Position numbers and translations under genes: made by a program. DNA of 33,761 nucleotides from Chloroflexota bacterium (GTDB lineage: Bacteria > Chloroflexota > Dehalococcoidia > Lucifugimonadales > Lucifugimonadaceae), in the NCBI GenBank assembly GCA_022562515.1, contig JADFPB010000005.1:1-33761 (forward strand), written 5' to 3'. Shown here one piece after another: positions 580 through 8,129 of this stretch. Each line of letters begins with the position of its first letter. Within the stretch, counting starts at the first letter, position 1. Below the pieces are notes generated by a model. It searched no databases and was not told the origin of the DNA. It worked only from the letters and a program-made list of their open reading frames with translations.

Positions 580-1005
580 CTACCCCTGAACACTATTCGC
601 CAGCCAGGGAATCGCCACGCCGAAAAGCCCCACGAACAGCACGTACTCGAATAGCACATGCAATCGAATCGGCCGCAACAGACCCAGCGCGACTGGCGCG
701 GTGCTTACGGCGAATATCAAGATAAAGATGAAATAGGGGATGCTCGGTATCGGGTCGAACCCGGTTCCTGCGAAATCCTCCAGCACCGTCGATAGCAGGG
801 CGAGCAGCGCGCCCGCTACACCCAGCCCCGGGACGATCGCGGCAGTGCCCAGGAAAACCACGCGGGGAAGCGCGGTCGCATCGGCGTTGCTGAACCGCCG
901 CTCGATAGTATCCGGCATGAAGTAAACCACCGCGTACGTCATGTGGCCAACGAAAACCAGCCCCATGATGAGGCCGAGCAGCGCCCCCGAAAGCGCCACC
1001 TGCAT
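580..1005 (-). CDS. small multi-pass membrane protein, unknown function
   Basis: Hydrophobic segments (MQVALSGALLGLIMGLVFVGHMTYAVVYF...). Start ATG at 1005-1003 overlaps the ispE stop as TGATG; the longer 1101 start would overlap ispE. Confidence 0.6.
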   Translation of the reverse strand: MQVALSGALLGLIMGLVFVGHMTYAVVYFMPDTIERRFSNADATALPRVVFLGTAAIVPGLGVAGALLALLSTVLEDFAGTGFDPIPSIPYFIFILIFAVSTAPVALGLLRPIRLHVLFEYVLFVGLFGVAIPWLANSVQG

Positions 1006-1892
1006 CAGGAGTCGCCGCCAGAATTCTCGCTGCGCTCGTCCGGCCACCACGCCCTGGTGAGCGTCGCATTCCAGCCCCGGCTCTGCAGCAGCAGTTGCCA
1101 CGCAACGCCAAGTTCCCGGCTATCCGCAACCGCGTACAACGTTGGCCCCGCGCCGGAAAGAATCACCTCCGCCGCGCCAACCCCGCGAAACCCTGTCCGG
1201 TACTCATCCATCCCCGGAAACGCCTCGTCTGCGACCTGGTCGAAGGCGTTGAAGAAAAACTGCGGTGGCACGTCGCCACCACCGCGTATTCGCCCCGCCA
1301 GTTTGTGGGACAGAGTCCCGCGAGTATGGTTTCCGGCCGTGAGCCGCGAAAACAACGCGCCGGTCTTGTTTTTCAGGTGCTCCGGGCGAATATGCGGCGA
1401 CAGCAGCACGAACCATTCCAGGTCCGCCTTCGGCAACGGCGTTACGTCCTCGCCCCTGCCCTGTACCAGCGCCGTACCGCCCCGCAGCAGATAAGGCACG
1501 TCCGAGCCGATCGTCAACGCCAGCGACGATAGCTCGCGCGCGTCCAGGCCCGCCTTCCAGAGCCGGTTCAGGCCCTCCAATACCGCCGCCGCGTCGGCCG
1601 AGCCGCCGCCCAGCCCCCCGGCCGCGGGGATTCGCTTCCGCAGCGTGATGTGGACGCCATCGGACGTGCCAGCCACGTCCCGCAGCGCCTGAGCGGACTT
1701 CACGACGAGGTTATCGCCGCCGGCCAGCTCCGGAACGTCACAGTTCAGGCTGATGCCGTCCGACGATTCTAGTTCGATCTCGTCGTGCAGATCGATCGTC
1801 TGCAACACAGACACCAGGTTGTGATAACCGTCATGCCGTTTGCCGAGGACTTCAAGCGTGAGGTTCAGCTTCGCGTGCGCTTCCAGCTTCAT
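1005..1892 (-). CDS. ispE: 4-diphosphocytidyl-2-C-methyl-D-erythritol kinase
   Basis: AHAKLNLTLEVLGKRHDGYHNLVSVLQTIDLHDEI; KRIPAAGGLGGGSADAAAVL GHMP-kinase motif; LSGAGPTLYAV. Confidence 0.95.
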   Translation of the reverse strand: MKLEAHAKLNLTLEVLGKRHDGYHNLVSVLQTIDLHDEIELESSDGISLNCDVPELAGGDNLVVKSAQALRDVAGTSDGVHITLRKRIPAAGGLGGGSADAAAVLEGLNRLWKAGLDARELSSLALTIGSDVPYLLRGGTALVQGRGEDVTPLPKADLEWFVLLSPHIRPEHLKNKTGALFSRLTAGNHTRGTLSHKLAGRIRGGGDVPPQFFFNAFDQVADEAFPGMDEYRTGFRGVGAAEVILSGAGPTLYAVADSRELGVAWQLLLQSRGWNATLTRAWWPDERSENSGGDS

Positions 1893-2731
1893 TACGGCTC
1901 ACCGGCTTCCAGCCACGCCTCGTACAACCCTCGCCAGTCGTCCATCGACAGGGTTGCCGGGCGCTGCGACGGATCAAGCCCGGCCTTCTCGATTATCGGC
2001 GCGTAGACGGCTGCCTTCCCCCTGAACCCGACCGCCAGAGAGTTCGGCAGCATCTTGCGCGGGGCGGCGAACCCGGCGCGCGCCAGCGTGAAAAATTTTC
2101 CGGTGGGCCCGCCGCCGATCGACGGCTCCGCACGCAGAGCGAGATGGACTACCGAAGAGTGAACCTTCGGTTGGGGCGAGAACGCCCGCGGCGGCGCGTG
2201 GCACACTATTCGCGCCTCGGCGTAGAGTTGCGTGGCTACCGATAGAAGGCCCATCTCACCCGGCTTCGCCGTCATCTCCCTGGCGACCTCACGCTGCACC
2301 ATGACAACGGCCTCAGTCGGTGGCGCCTCGTTCTCGAGCAGGTTCCGGACTATCGGCGACGCCGCGTAGTACGGCAGGTTGCCGACGACCTTGTACGGAC
2401 CCTCGGCCATCTCCGGAACGTCACTGGGCGACAGTGTCCGGGCGTCGGCGTTCACCACGCTGACGTGGGGCTGATCGGCAAACTTTTCCGATAGATCAGC
2501 GGCGAGCGCATCATCGTACTCGACGAGCACGAGGCGGCCGGCCGCTTCAGCAAGAAGTCCCGTAAGGGCGCCGCGCCCGGGGCCGATCTCTATGACCGTA
2601 TCCTGGCCGCCTTCGAGCCGTGCTGCACCGACGATTCGCTTCACAATCGAACGGTCGCGCAGGAAATGCTGCCCCAGTGACTTGCGCGGCTTTCGCCGGC
2701 CTGATGAAGACGTCCCAGATGAAGCAGTCAT
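1892..2731 (-). CDS. rsmA: 16S rRNA (adenine1518-N6/adenine1519-N6)-dimethyltransferase
   Basis: RKSLGQHFLRDRSIVKRIV, VIEIGPGRGALTGLLAE, VVGNLPYYAASPIV, QREVA. Track start is 2761; 2731 (MTASSGTSS) or later is preferred because 2740-2761 matches the 3' end of the SRP RNA. Stop overlaps ispE start as TAATG. Confidence 0.92.
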   Translation of the reverse strand: MTASSGTSSSGRRKPRKSLGQHFLRDRSIVKRIVGAARLEGGQDTVIEIGPGRGALTGLLAEAAGRLVLVEYDDALAADLSEKFADQPHVSVVNADARTLSPSDVPEMAEGPYKVVGNLPYYAASPIVRNLLENEAPPTEAVVMVQREVAREMTAKPGEMGLLSVATQLYAEARIVCHAPPRAFSPQPKVHSSVVHLALRAEPSIGGGPTGKFFTLARAGFAAPRKMLPNSLAVGFRGKAAVYAPIIEKAGLDPSQRPATLSMDDWRGLYEAWLEAGEP

Positions 2732-2738
2732 AAATGTG

Positions 2739-3008
2739 AGCCGTGCACCCCCGTTCGTCATGGCGCCGAAGATATGCTCAATCCCGATCGCTCAGACCAG
2801 GCTGGCCTGCGGCACCCGAGGGATCTCGCATACCGCTGCTTCCTTCCGGACCTGACGGGGTTCACAAGGCCTCGCCGCGCAGGACCCGGTCCTCAACACG
2901 ATCAATAAAGAGCAGGGAACTTTGACGCGCATGCCTCCGGGGGGAGTTCAACCCCGCTATAGCGGATTGCGGGTTCAGGGCGCCGCTACTTCCCCGTCTA
3001 GCACGACC
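2739..3008 (-). ncRNA. ffs: large bacterial signal recognition particle RNA (Alu plus S domain)
   Basis: Minus strand reads GTCGTGCTAGACGGGGAAGTAGCGGCGCCCTGAACCCGCAATCCGCTATAGCGGGGTTGAACTCCC (Alu domain, like Bacillus scRNA), then GGGTCCTGCGC...GTGAACCCCGTCAGGTCCGGAAGGAAGCAGCGG...GGTGCCGCAGG (S domain with GGAA tetraloop), ending GGTGCACGGC. 5' GTCGTGC pairs with 3' GCACGGC (helix 1); TGCTC/GAGCA and GATCG/CGATC pair in helix 5. Confidence 0.93.
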
Positions 3009-3014
3009 ACACCA

Positions 3015-3044
3015 ATCGTATGTATGCCACAGAACGGGTGTCAA
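3015..3044 (-). promoter_or_regulatory. sigma70-type promoter for the SRP RNA
   Basis: Minus strand TTGACA (3044-3039), 18-nt spacer, TACGAT (3020-3015), ~7 nt before the predicted RNA 5' end. Confidence 0.7.
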
Positions 3045-4449: not shown

Positions 4450-4515
4450 CTCCAACACCAACCGATAACGGTCGTGCGAACCGGTTTTCCGATCCGCCAT
4501 TCTTGGGAGTTACCG

Positions 4516-5553
4516 ATGCACATCAAAGTCACTTTTTTACTTCTGCTCGCGCTGGGCCTCATCGCGGGCTCATCCAGCGCCGCTCTGGCGCACGAAACGC
4601 GCGAGCTGGGCGGCGTCAAGATAGAAATCGGCTTCGAGACCGAGCCGCCCCTTGAAGGCCTCCCCAATGCCATAGTTATAGTCGCCGTCAGACCGGCCGA
4701 TGACTCTTCCATGGAGATGGACATGGGTGAGACAACGGACATGGGCGCCGCTTCAAAACTTCAGCTCCACGGGGAAGTATTCGGGTCGGGCACCATCGCG
4801 ACGGGGGCCTCATTCAGGTATGCGGTGACGCATGAATTTGAAGGCCAGACGATTCCGTTTCACAACCACCTGAACCATGACGCGTTCGGCGAAATACAGG
4901 TGACGCCGGATGCCCCCGAAGCAGAGTCCGTGACCATCGTGATCGGCGCGAATGGGTTCTACAAGCCGCCCACCGTGACGGTCAGGCCGGACACCTTCGT
5001 GATCTTCACGAATACCGACGACTCCCCACAGACCGTCATTAGCGGCCCCCCGAGCAGCAGCCCGGACTTTGCCACCGACGCCGAGGCCGGCTTTGTACCT
5101 GTGATCGGGCTTGAAGGTGATCTCCGCATCGAGATCACCCACACGGAGTCAGGGATCACCAGAGAACTGGTTCTTCGGCCGGTATTCGGACAGCCGGGCA
5201 AGTACCTGGCGCCGCTGATACCGACCGCTACGGGCCAGTACTCGGTGCGCCTTTTCGGCACGATCGGGGAGACCGACGTCGACGAAACCTTCGTCTCAGG
5301 CCCCGGCACGTTCGATGACGTGGTGCCTGCAACATCGATTCAGTTCCCCAACCAGATACCGTCCGGACGAGAGCTCATAGGCGCGGCGCGCGGCGCGCAG
5401 GAGCAGCTCGCAGCAGCGTTCGACGCCGCCGACGACGCGGACTCCTCCGCAACCACGGCGCTGATAGTCGGCATCATCGGCCTGGCCGTCGGTTTGACCG
5501 GCCTCAGCATGGGCGGATACGCCGTTTTTGCGACGCGGCGCAGGGCCCTGTAG
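4516..5553 (+). CDS. secreted membrane-anchored protein: YtkA-like domain carrying an inserted cupredoxin-like domain
   Basis: SD-like GGGAG 7 nt before ATG 4516; signal peptide; LGGVKIEIGFETEPPLEGLPNAIVI ... IGLEGDLRIEITH...RPVFGQPGKYLAPLIPTATGQYSVRLFGTIGETDVDETF flanks FHNHLNHDAFGEIQV and GFYKPPTVTVRPDTFVIFTNTDDSPQTV; C-terminal TM helix. Confidence 0.8.
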   Translation: MHIKVTFLLLLALGLIAGSSSAALAHETRELGGVKIEIGFETEPPLEGLPNAIVIVAVRPADDSSMEMDMGETTDMGAASKLQLHGEVFGSGTIATGASFRYAVTHEFEGQTIPFHNHLNHDAFGEIQVTPDAPEAESVTIVIGANGFYKPPTVTVRPDTFVIFTNTDDSPQTVISGPPSSSPDFATDAEAGFVPVIGLEGDLRIEITHTESGITRELVLRPVFGQPGKYLAPLIPTATGQYSVRLFGTIGETDVDETFVSGPGTFDDVVPATSIQFPNQIPSGRELIGAARGAQEQLAAAFDAADDADSSATTALIVGIIGLAVGLTGLSMGGYAVFATRRRAL

Positions 5554-5571: not shown

Positions 5572-5820
5572 ATGCCCAAATTTCCCAAGATCCTCAGATT
5601 GTTGAACAGGGCCGGACTCCGGCTCCGCTCCACGGCGCCTGTCCTCGCTCCCGCGCCGCTGCTCCACTCTATTGGCGGCGGCGGAAACTGGGACGAGATC
5701 ATCGCCTTCGCGGTGATCATCGGGTTCCTCGTCGCGCTGGCCGGATTCGGCTACTACAGCGGCCGGCAAAAGAACAAACGGCGCGCGCGGAAGCGTCGGC
5801 GGAGGTCGGCGAAGAGGTGA
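5572..5820 (+). CDS. small single-TM protein with extremely basic C-terminal tail
   Basis: NWDEIIAFAVIIGFLVALAGFGYYSG TM segment then RQKNKRRARKRRRRSAKR; stop overlaps the next start. Confidence 0.55.
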   Translation: MPKFPKILRLLNRAGLRLRSTAPVLAPAPLLHSIGGGGNWDEIIAFAVIIGFLVALAGFGYYSGRQKNKRRARKRRRRSAKR

Positions 5821-8129
5821 TGCGCCACTGGTTGACGCGGGCGTACGGGCGCAAGCCGATCAGCGCGGCCGCGACAGTTCTGCTCGCCGCGCTCTTCGCG
5901 CTCGCCGCCTACATCGGCTCTCCGCCGCTCCCGGCATCCGCTCACGCCAATGTCGAGGTCGCCAACCCGCAACCCGAGTCGGAATTAGAAGACGCGCCAG
6001 ACCGCATCGTCATCCAGTTCACGGAGCCACTGGAAGCCCGCTTCAGCGAGATCACGCTCCTCGACGCCAACGGGGTCCGCGTCGACAACCAGGACAGCAA
6101 GATCGACCTGACAGACCCCACCACCCTGGCCGTCACCCTGCCGCCGCTCGAGAATGGCACGTACACCGTTTCCTGGAGCAACGTCTCGACCGTGGACGGC
6201 CACCGCGTGAACGGCGCATACGTCTTCTCCGTGGGCGAGCCGATCTCCGGCGGTGCGGTGGTTGGCGGCGAATCGACCCTCCAGTCCCAGGGCGAGCCGT
6301 TCTTCCGCTGGATAGTCCTGCTCGGCGCGCTCGCGGCAGTTGGCGGCCTGGCATTCCAGGCGCTTGTCGTCCACCCCGTTCTGTCTCGCATCAGCGGCAA
6401 TCCCGCCGTGAAACAGGCGCGCGATGCGATGCTGCGGCGCGGTGACGTCGCGATCTGGGCCGGGCTGGGCCTGTTCGCCATCGGCTCCGTGCTGCATCTC
6501 GCGCAGCAGGCGGCAACGACCTTCGACGTATCGTTCTGGAACGCCATCGGCAGTGAAATGGGAACGATTGTTACGGATACCGACTGGGGAAGCGACTGGC
6601 TGCTCAGGGTTTCTCTAATAGGCGTCATGGCCGCGCTTCTGACCGTGGCAGCGCGCGTACCCAACCGCGAAATGCTGCTCGCCGGCGACATCCGCCTCGG
6701 CCAGGCTCTCCGTTATACCGCTCTCCTTCCAGGCGCAGCCGCGCTCTTAACACTGGCCCTCATCAGCCACGGCGCAGGCACGGCAGGGCTGACCGGGACT
6801 GCGCTCGCCGCCGACTTCGTACACTTGCTGGCGGCCGCTCTATGGGTCGGCGGACTGGTGCAGCTCTTCGCCGGGCTGCCAGTCCTGATCGGGGCGTCAC
6901 GGGAAGGCGTTTTGCGCCGCATCCTGCAGCGCATGGTCCCCCGCTTCTCCGTTGTTGCGCTCATCAGCGCGGCGACCCTGATCCTCACCGGCGCGTTCAG
7001 CGCCTGGGCGCAGCTAAGCGCATGGGAGGCGTTCACTACCGCATACGGATACGCCCTCATCGCCAAGCTGCTCGTTCTCATCCCGCTCCTGGCGGCGGCG
7101 GCGTTCAACCTGCTCTGGCTGCGGCCGAAGATCCAGACGGCGACCGGCCGGGCTGCAAGGCTCATGCGGCGCTTCGTCGCACTCGAGATCGCCTCCCTCG
7201 TTCTCGTCCTGCTGGCCGTCGGATACCTGACCGCGCTCGAGCCCGGCCGGCAGGTAGCCTCACGCGAAGCCGCTGCCAGAGGGCCGAGCTTCACTGAAAT
7301 AGCCGAGGGCGCAACGATCGATACCCGCTTCGAGCACTCACGCGTCGGGCCGAACAACATCACGATCACCATCACGGACAGGCGCGGCAACCGCATCGAG
7401 AACGCCAACAACGTGGAAGTGATAATCGTCGGGCTGAGCGCTGGACTCCCGAGCGATCTCGCCCGCGCCGTGGACCAGGGCAACGGCGAGTGGCTGATCG
7501 AGGACTACCGGCTCAGCGTGGCCGGCGAGTGGCAGATCGAGACGGTTGTCCGCAGGCCGGGCAGCTTCGACGCCCGCACCGCGTTCCGCTTCGACATCGG
7601 CGGCGTCGGAGACGGGGGAAGCTCCCTCTTCGCCCCCAACCCGGACACCGCGGGCCTGCTGTTTGGCGGCGCGGTAGCCGCCATCGGCCTCATGATCCTC
7701 TTCGCAAGCGTTCCGCTCGGCGCCGTTTACACGCGCTCCGGCATATCCATCGCCGCGCCCGGCCTGGCGGCGGCCGTGGTGGGGCTGGTGATCATCGGAA
7801 ACGCGGTTGCCACGACGAGCGCCGATACCTCCGGCCTCCGCAACCCCTTCCCGCCAACAGCTGAATCCGTGGATATCGGACGCGATGGATACGTGCAGAC
7901 CTGCTCTGCCTGCCACGGCGAAGAGGGCCTCGGCGATGGCCCGGCAGCGCCCAGGCTCACTGCCGATCTCACCATCCACGTGCCGCTCCACAGAGATGGC
8001 GATCTCTTCACCTTCATGAGAGACGGCATATCCGGCACCCCCATGAAATCGCTCAGCAACGTCCTCACCGAAGACCAGATGTGGCACATAGTCAACTACG
8101 TTCGGACGCTGGCGCGGCCGGGGGGATGA
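5820..8129 (+). CDS. CopC-CopD-cytochrome c fusion protein
   Basis: CopC: SAHANVEVANPQPESELEDAPDRIVIQFTEPLEARFSEITLLD; multi-TM CopD region; YtkA/FixH-like region; C-terminal c-type heme motif CSACHGEEGLGDGP with downstream GTPMKSL. GTG 5817 is an alternative start. Confidence 0.88.
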   Translation: MRHWLTRAYGRKPISAAATVLLAALFALAAYIGSPPLPASAHANVEVANPQPESELEDAPDRIVIQFTEPLEARFSEITLLDANGVRVDNQDSKIDLTDPTTLAVTLPPLENGTYTVSWSNVSTVDGHRVNGAYVFSVGEPISGGAVVGGESTLQSQGEPFFRWIVLLGALAAVGGLAFQALVVHPVLSRISGNPAVKQARDAMLRRGDVAIWAGLGLFAIGSVLHLAQQAATTFDVSFWNAIGSEMGTIVTDTDWGSDWLLRVSLIGVMAALLTVAARVPNREMLLAGDIRLGQALRYTALLPGAAALLTLALISHGAGTAGLTGTALAADFVHLLAAALWVGGLVQLFAGLPVLIGASREGVLRRILQRMVPRFSVVALISAATLILTGAFSAWAQLSAWEAFTTAYGYALIAKLLVLIPLLAAAAFNLLWLRPKIQTATGRAARLMRRFVALEIASLVLVLLAVGYLTALEPGRQVASREAAARGPSFTEIAEGATIDTRFEHSRVGPNNITITITDRRGNRIENANNVEVIIVGLSAGLPSDLARAVDQGNGEWLIEDYRLSVAGEWQIETVVRRPGSFDARTAFRFDIGGVGDGGSSLFAPNPDTAGLLFGGAVAAIGLMILFASVPLGAVYTRSGISIAAPGLAAAVVGLVIIGNAVATTSADTSGLRNPFPPTAESVDIGRDGYVQTCSACHGEEGLGDGPAAPRLTADLTIHVPLHRDGDLFTFMRDGISGTPMKSLSNVLTEDQMWHIVNYVRTLARPGG

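Follow-up and report, generated by a model that had tools for sequence, protein, structure and literature searches.

Does the minus strand between positions 2739 and 3008 of a contig from a Chloroflexota bacterium encode a large SRP RNA with an Alu domain, as an initial annotation proposed, and what would such a gene say about the evolution of the SRP? The window, meaning the whole stretch of DNA analysed, is 33,761 nucleotides (33.8 kb) long. We conclude with near certainty that this interval is the gene for the host SRP RNA in its large bacterial form (Table 1). The RNA is full length, carries an Alu domain and is a well-formed further member of a known family.

The covariance model RF01854 (Bacteria_large_SRP) matched at 185.6 bits (E 3.8e-31, gathering score 60), with an untruncated alignment across model positions 1–256 of 256. 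This was the sole match above any Rfam cut-off in the window, in which no tRNA was found. RF00169 (Bacteria_small_SRP) was confined to 2792–2891 on the same strand at 78.2 bits, and conserved paired structure extends on both sides of that interval, so the element exceeds the S-domain hairpin alone by which RF00169 is defined. After overlap removal a permissive scan kept RF01854 only and dropped four lower-scoring matches of the SRP clan (small bacterial, archaeal and eukaryotic). The initial annotation had named the two bacterial models as arbiters, and the outcome it regarded as fatal to an Alu domain, a match to the small model only, did not appear: the large model aligned over its full length and with the higher score. 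Both sequence marks on which it relied were located on the minus strand, namely the S-domain signature GTCAGGTCCGGAAGGAAGCAGC, with the GNRA-type tetraloop and conserved internal loops of helix 8, and the Bacillus-like Alu stretch GTGCTAGACGGGGAAGTAGCGGCGCCCTG...CCGCAATCCGCTATAGCGGGG.

Table 1 Features at the SRP RNA locus (all on the minus strand).
Feature	Positions	Strand	Evidence
Sigma-70-type promoter TTGACA-N18-TACGAT	3015–3044	-	10/12 matches; kept in 30/54 relatives
SRP RNA gene, probable full extent, ~270 nt	2739–3008	-	RF01854 match plus two flanking helix 1 pairs; probable transcription start to end of extended helix 1
RF01854 Bacteria_large_SRP, full model 1–256	2741–3006	-	185.6 bits
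Alu domain 5' part: helices 2, 3, 4 and 5' strand of helix 1	2948–3006	-	Mapped Rfam structure; compensatory pairs
Helix 3 loop AGCGG, pseudoknot side	2983–2987	-	Pairs with CCGCU
Junction motif UGAAC (most relatives UGUAC)	2973–2977	-	Count over 40 sequences
Helix 4 loop CCGCU, other pseudoknot side	2961–2965	-	Pairs with AGCGG
S domain, helix 8 and GGAA tetraloop (Ffh-binding region)	2792–2891	-	RF00169 match, 78.2 bits; GTCAGGTCCGGAAGGAAGCAGC
ksgA/rsmA, 16S rRNA dimethyltransferase	1892–2731	-	TIGR00755 above cut-off; PF00398
ispE, one-base overlap with ksgA end, presumed same operon	1005–1892	-	TIGR00154 above cut-off

The host belongs to the Chloroflexota (Dehalococcoidia, SAR202-like). 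Its KsgA is 89% identical over 170 residues to that of a Chloroflexi MAG (B35T1B5) and 64–66% identical to those of bin.490 and Dehalococcoidia UBA1151, followed by SAR202 bins as the next neighbors. The host assembly is a 2.66-Mb MAG split into 261 contigs, with 83% completeness and 5.4% contamination. A profile search found Ffh encoded in it at 584 bits. No FtsY was found in the assembly, which we count against our explanation, although other members of the family have it; its absence here is probably due to incompleteness. The fragmentation and incompleteness of the MAG leave room for the idea that the locus is a pseudogene copy and that the real SRP RNA lies elsewhere in the genome. That idea has a negligible probability, as the match is the single one above cut-off in the genome (the next best reached 21.3 bits with RF01854 and 17.6 bits with RF00169, both below cut-off), its score is typical for the order and its structure is intact. 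Elsewhere in the window, a single 770-aa ORF (5817–8129, plus strand) joins CopC and CopD to a cytochrome c domain at the C terminus. Ahead of it lies a 359-aa ORF (4474–5553, plus strand) in which an N-terminal and a C-terminal hydrophobic segment can be seen by eye and which had no Pfam or NCBIfam match.

Conservation of the structure was assessed in 40 sequences drawn from the Chloroflexota, both SAR202-like and other, with the Rfam structure mapped onto the window. Changes on both sides were seen in 68 of 100 pairs of the whole RNA against 45.2 in shuffles, with none of 500 shuffles as high, and overall pairing fell from 81.7% to below 48% when partners were slid by one to three columns. 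The Alu domain by itself showed 10 compensatory pairs (3.2 in shuffles) and 87.7% pairing, compared with about 50% or less for slid partners. Three compensatory pairs fall in helix 1, three in helix 2 and two in helix 4, while helix 3 is paired in all 40 sequences. The loop-loop pseudoknot AGCGG/CCGCU is kept in 40 of 40, four of its pairs being invariant and the fifth an A-U in 39 sequences and a G-C in one. The junction motif reads UGUAC in 27 sequences, UGAAC in nine, UGCAC in three and UAUAC in one; the UGU of the Alu junction is thus replaced by UGA in nine of the 40 overall, as it is in the window. Among the comparative pairs, outer helix 5 has many unpaired positions, which we count against our explanation. 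The single-sequence folding energy is weakly better than that of shuffles (z -1.95) and is weak evidence taken alone; the case is built on the covariance model and the comparative pairs.

Selection on the Alu part also bears on a simpler reading, in which only a small, 4.5S-like SRP RNA is functional and the Alu-like part is a remnant, either trimmed from the transcript or not transcribed at all. The small model does fit the S domain well, and Alu-less relatives occur in the same family and order, but the compensatory changes in helices 1, 2 and 4 and the kept pseudoknot indicate that the Alu part is under selection, and the promoter lies upstream of it. A small SRP RNA only was accordingly rejected on clan overlap removal, the limited extent of the small-model match and the Alu covariation, and we regard this reading as very improbable. 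The initial claim of a large SRP RNA with an Alu domain is borne out by the full-model match together with structure and covariation.

Helix 1 closes the 5' and 3' ends, as in the large form of bacteria and archaea. Of the seven pairs that the model gives it, six are standard here and the seventh, a U-U, fails in 38 of 40 sequences. Two further pairs beyond the model, G3007-C2740 and G3008-U2739, form in 54 of 54 and 53 of 54 loci, largely as invariant G-C, and extend the RNA to 2739–3008, thereby recovering the ~270-nt extent first proposed. A third flanking pair covaries, being formed in 41 of 54 loci with many pair types (0.43 expected), but is not formed in the window. The termini GTCGTGC (3007–3001) and GCACGGC (2746–2740) pair as the initial annotation had claimed, although the position given for the first of them was off by one base.

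The promoter is the only one in 1.5 kb, where 0.2 were expected, and the combination of TTGAC and TANNNT at the correct spacing and in the same place recurs at 30 of 54 loci, where shuffled sequence would give 0.015. Given that the promoter ends at 3015, transcription is expected to start near 3008, and the 5' end of the RNA probably coincides with that start. No terminator was found in the window to separate the RNA from ksgA downstream. The probable ksgA ATG at 2731 lies nine bases past the end of the RF01854 match, and a longer ksgA ORF from 2761 would start within the RNA. With no terminator and a start codon this close, we infer that transcription runs on into ksgA, in which case the 3' end of the RNA would have to arise by processing. 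At four loci (L006, L010, L014 and L018) the stretch from the SRP RNA to ksgA holds no ATG, GTG or TTG in frame. For the first three, the sole in-frame ksgA starts lie within the 3' strand of the RNA (the GTG of GGTGCACG, or an ATG), and L018 has none even there, so translation of ksgA at these loci may start inside the RNA or right at its edge.

The layout of the window locus could suggest that the element is chiefly a structured 5' leader controlling ksgA and only secondarily an SRP RNA. The missing terminator and the position of the ksgA ATG favor this, as does synteny, since 24 of the 25 loci from the order have ksgA following the SRP RNA. Elsewhere in the phylum, however, just 7 of 29 loci share this order of genes, yet the RNA persists; moreover, its conserved features are those of an SRP RNA, and SRP RNA and Ffh/FtsY are co-present or co-absent among genomes (see below). 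A leader as the primary role is therefore highly unlikely.

A scheme for its function can start from what is directly supported, namely the identity and structure of the RNA, its promoter, its synteny and the Ffh gene in the genome. Transcription would begin at the sigma-70-type promoter near 3008 and proceed through the RNA into ksgA and ispE, and processing at the foot of helix 1 would presumably generate the 3' end, by analogy with Bacillus subtilis. Ffh would bind the S domain at helix 8 and recognize signal sequences leaving the ribosome, the RNA scaffold would recruit FtsY, and helix 5 would carry the Alu domain to the elongation-factor site. There the Alu domain should slow translation during targeting, again as extrapolated from B. 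subtilis, whose Alu domain docks in the factor-binding site and blocks elongation (PMC8137916) and binds the GTPase center of the ribosome (PMC8881573). Bacterial and archaeal Alu RNAs share a loop-loop pseudoknot of five pairs (PMC8137916).

The large form is not peculiar to this genome. The RF01854 cut-off was passed by 225 of 301 Chloroflexota genomes, although RNAs made up of the S domain only can exceed it too, so that passing does not prove an Alu domain; at least 149 of the 301 carried a full-length match, all at 143 bits or more. In a second test, 20 loci, most of them picked for a weak or missing large-model match, were assigned to the small family in 16 cases and to the large family in four. 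The RF01854 counts from the genome search may be low, given that in it the B. subtilis control matched RF00169 and not RF01854. RNA of the RF00169 type occurs in families of the phylum other than the window's, and two genomes of the order to which the window belongs also have it. The full-length matches and the second test together indicate that the Alu domain is widespread in the phylum and that several lineages are without it. The large form is the commonest SRP RNA state in the sampled phylum, so the window copy adds little by itself. The Alu domain is commonly summarized as a mark of Gram-positive bacteria (PMC4359368, PMC8137916). The gene in the window, a routine annotation when taken alone, corrects that summary. 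The initial annotation had argued that an Alu domain here would inform SRP evolution if the host was a chloroflexotan; the host is one, the significance is weaker given how many genomes of the phylum exceed the cut-off, and it is the losses among relatives that are informative.

One such loss is seen at the same locus. A genome of another genus in the window's family (G009) has an Alu-less SRP RNA upstream of ksgA (L027, G009:C3:7771-7976), consisting of the S-domain hairpin only, with no Alu loops and a TACGAT box just upstream; the ksgA there is 52% identical. A similar Alu-less RNA occurs in G040 of the same order (L028, G040:C11:18286-18422), with ksgA-like sequence ~1.1 kb further on.

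Other relatives appear to have lost the whole SRP. We surveyed 147 genomes of the class that were at least 90% complete, with the host's own added. The Ffh profile had no match at E 0.001 in 13 of the 147, and the same 13 were without RF01854. Silence of the Ffh profile implies that FtsY is missing too, because FtsY normally matches that profile at ~200 bits. The genomes lacking SRP RNA, Ffh and FtsY are G008, from a further genus of the window's own family, nine of family f25 (G064, G075, G084, G093, G101, G125, G141, G156 and G236), and G117, G188 and G204; they are 97–100% complete and several are single contigs. Family f25 probably includes D. mccartyi 195 and Dehalogenimonas lykanthroporepellens BL-DC-9. 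Tests for both RNA and Ffh/FtsY in 38 genomes found both in 23, neither in 13 and a discordant state in two (Fisher p 2e-8, relatedness ignored). Of the discordant pair, G256 has an FtsY-type match only, with an RNA fragment at a contig edge, and G212 (family f34, 99% complete, 90 contigs) has Ffh and FtsY and no SRP RNA above noise, which reflects either a gap in the assembly or an RNA that has diverged strongly.

Search failure was rejected as the cause of these absences after the use of lenient filters, both RNA models, scans of ksgA loci, and Ffh and SRP54 profiles. The SRP54 GTPase profile yielded only Walker-A fragments of at most 22.9 bits in 12 of the 13 genomes and in G018, against two matches of 236–264 bits in each of three control genomes. 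Among control genes, trmD was found in all SRP-less genomes tested, ksgA in those tested and SecY in nine of nine. Masking was likewise rejected, there being no N in the first 800 kb of G064 or at the trmD locus in eight genomes of f25. Both RNA and Ffh were also missing from another nine genomes of the window's order, which are less complete; at several of the ksgA loci in these genomes, permissive scanning revealed no SRP RNA relic. In G026 and G034 the missing SRP RNA is probably an assembly gap, with Ffh present and the ksgA locus missing too. Two candidates were set aside: CP070729.1 (G357) was rejected as a decisive closed SRP-less genome, its ~153 runs of 100 N marking it as a scaffolded MAG, and L099, labelled Dehalococcoides mccartyi and carrying Ffh and FtsY, is 2.3 Mb and probably mislabelled.

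Taken together, the large form, the Alu-less G009 at the same ksgA locus and the SRP-less G008 place all three states in the window's family. It is likely that the Dehalococcoidia, and this family within them, comprise a state with a large Alu-bearing RNA accompanied by Ffh and FtsY, one in which a small RNA that has no Alu domain occupies the same place before ksgA, and one in which RNA, Ffh and FtsY are all absent and SecY is kept, with losses having occurred repeatedly. If so, repeated loss makes the Chloroflexota a natural experiment on the need for the bacterial Alu domain and for the SRP, and it is the loss of the Alu domain or of the entire SRP in relatives, more than the gene in the window, that informs SRP evolution. 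The SRP is treated as near universal, with which an SRP-less set that includes single-contig genomes, presumably corresponding to cultured Dehalococcoides and Dehalogenimonas, stands in contrast. Cultured SRP-less bacteria would allow a direct test of an SRP-free route of membrane proteins to SecY. A survey of SRP RNAs by Rosenblad et al. in 2009 reportedly described bacteria lacking all SRP components, so whole-SRP loss may be partly known already; no statement of SRP absence in Dehalococcoidia was found in the papers searched.

Compared with known systems, the window RNA shares with the RF01854 family its full-length match, helices 1–5 and 8, the Alu loop-loop pseudoknot and the GGAA tetraloop, and differs in its UGAAC junction, the two helix 1 pairs beyond the model and its location upstream of ksgA. 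With the 4.5S RNA of RF00169 it has in common the S domain and helix 8, whereas the 4.5S form is without helices 1–4 and the long helix 5. The scRNA (6S SRP RNA) of B. subtilis is ~271 nt long, and HBsu is the protein partner of its Alu domain. The window RNA resembles this scRNA in its size of ~270 nt, its Alu domain and its five-pair pseudoknot (PMC8137916), but belongs to another phylum and runs into ksgA-ispE.
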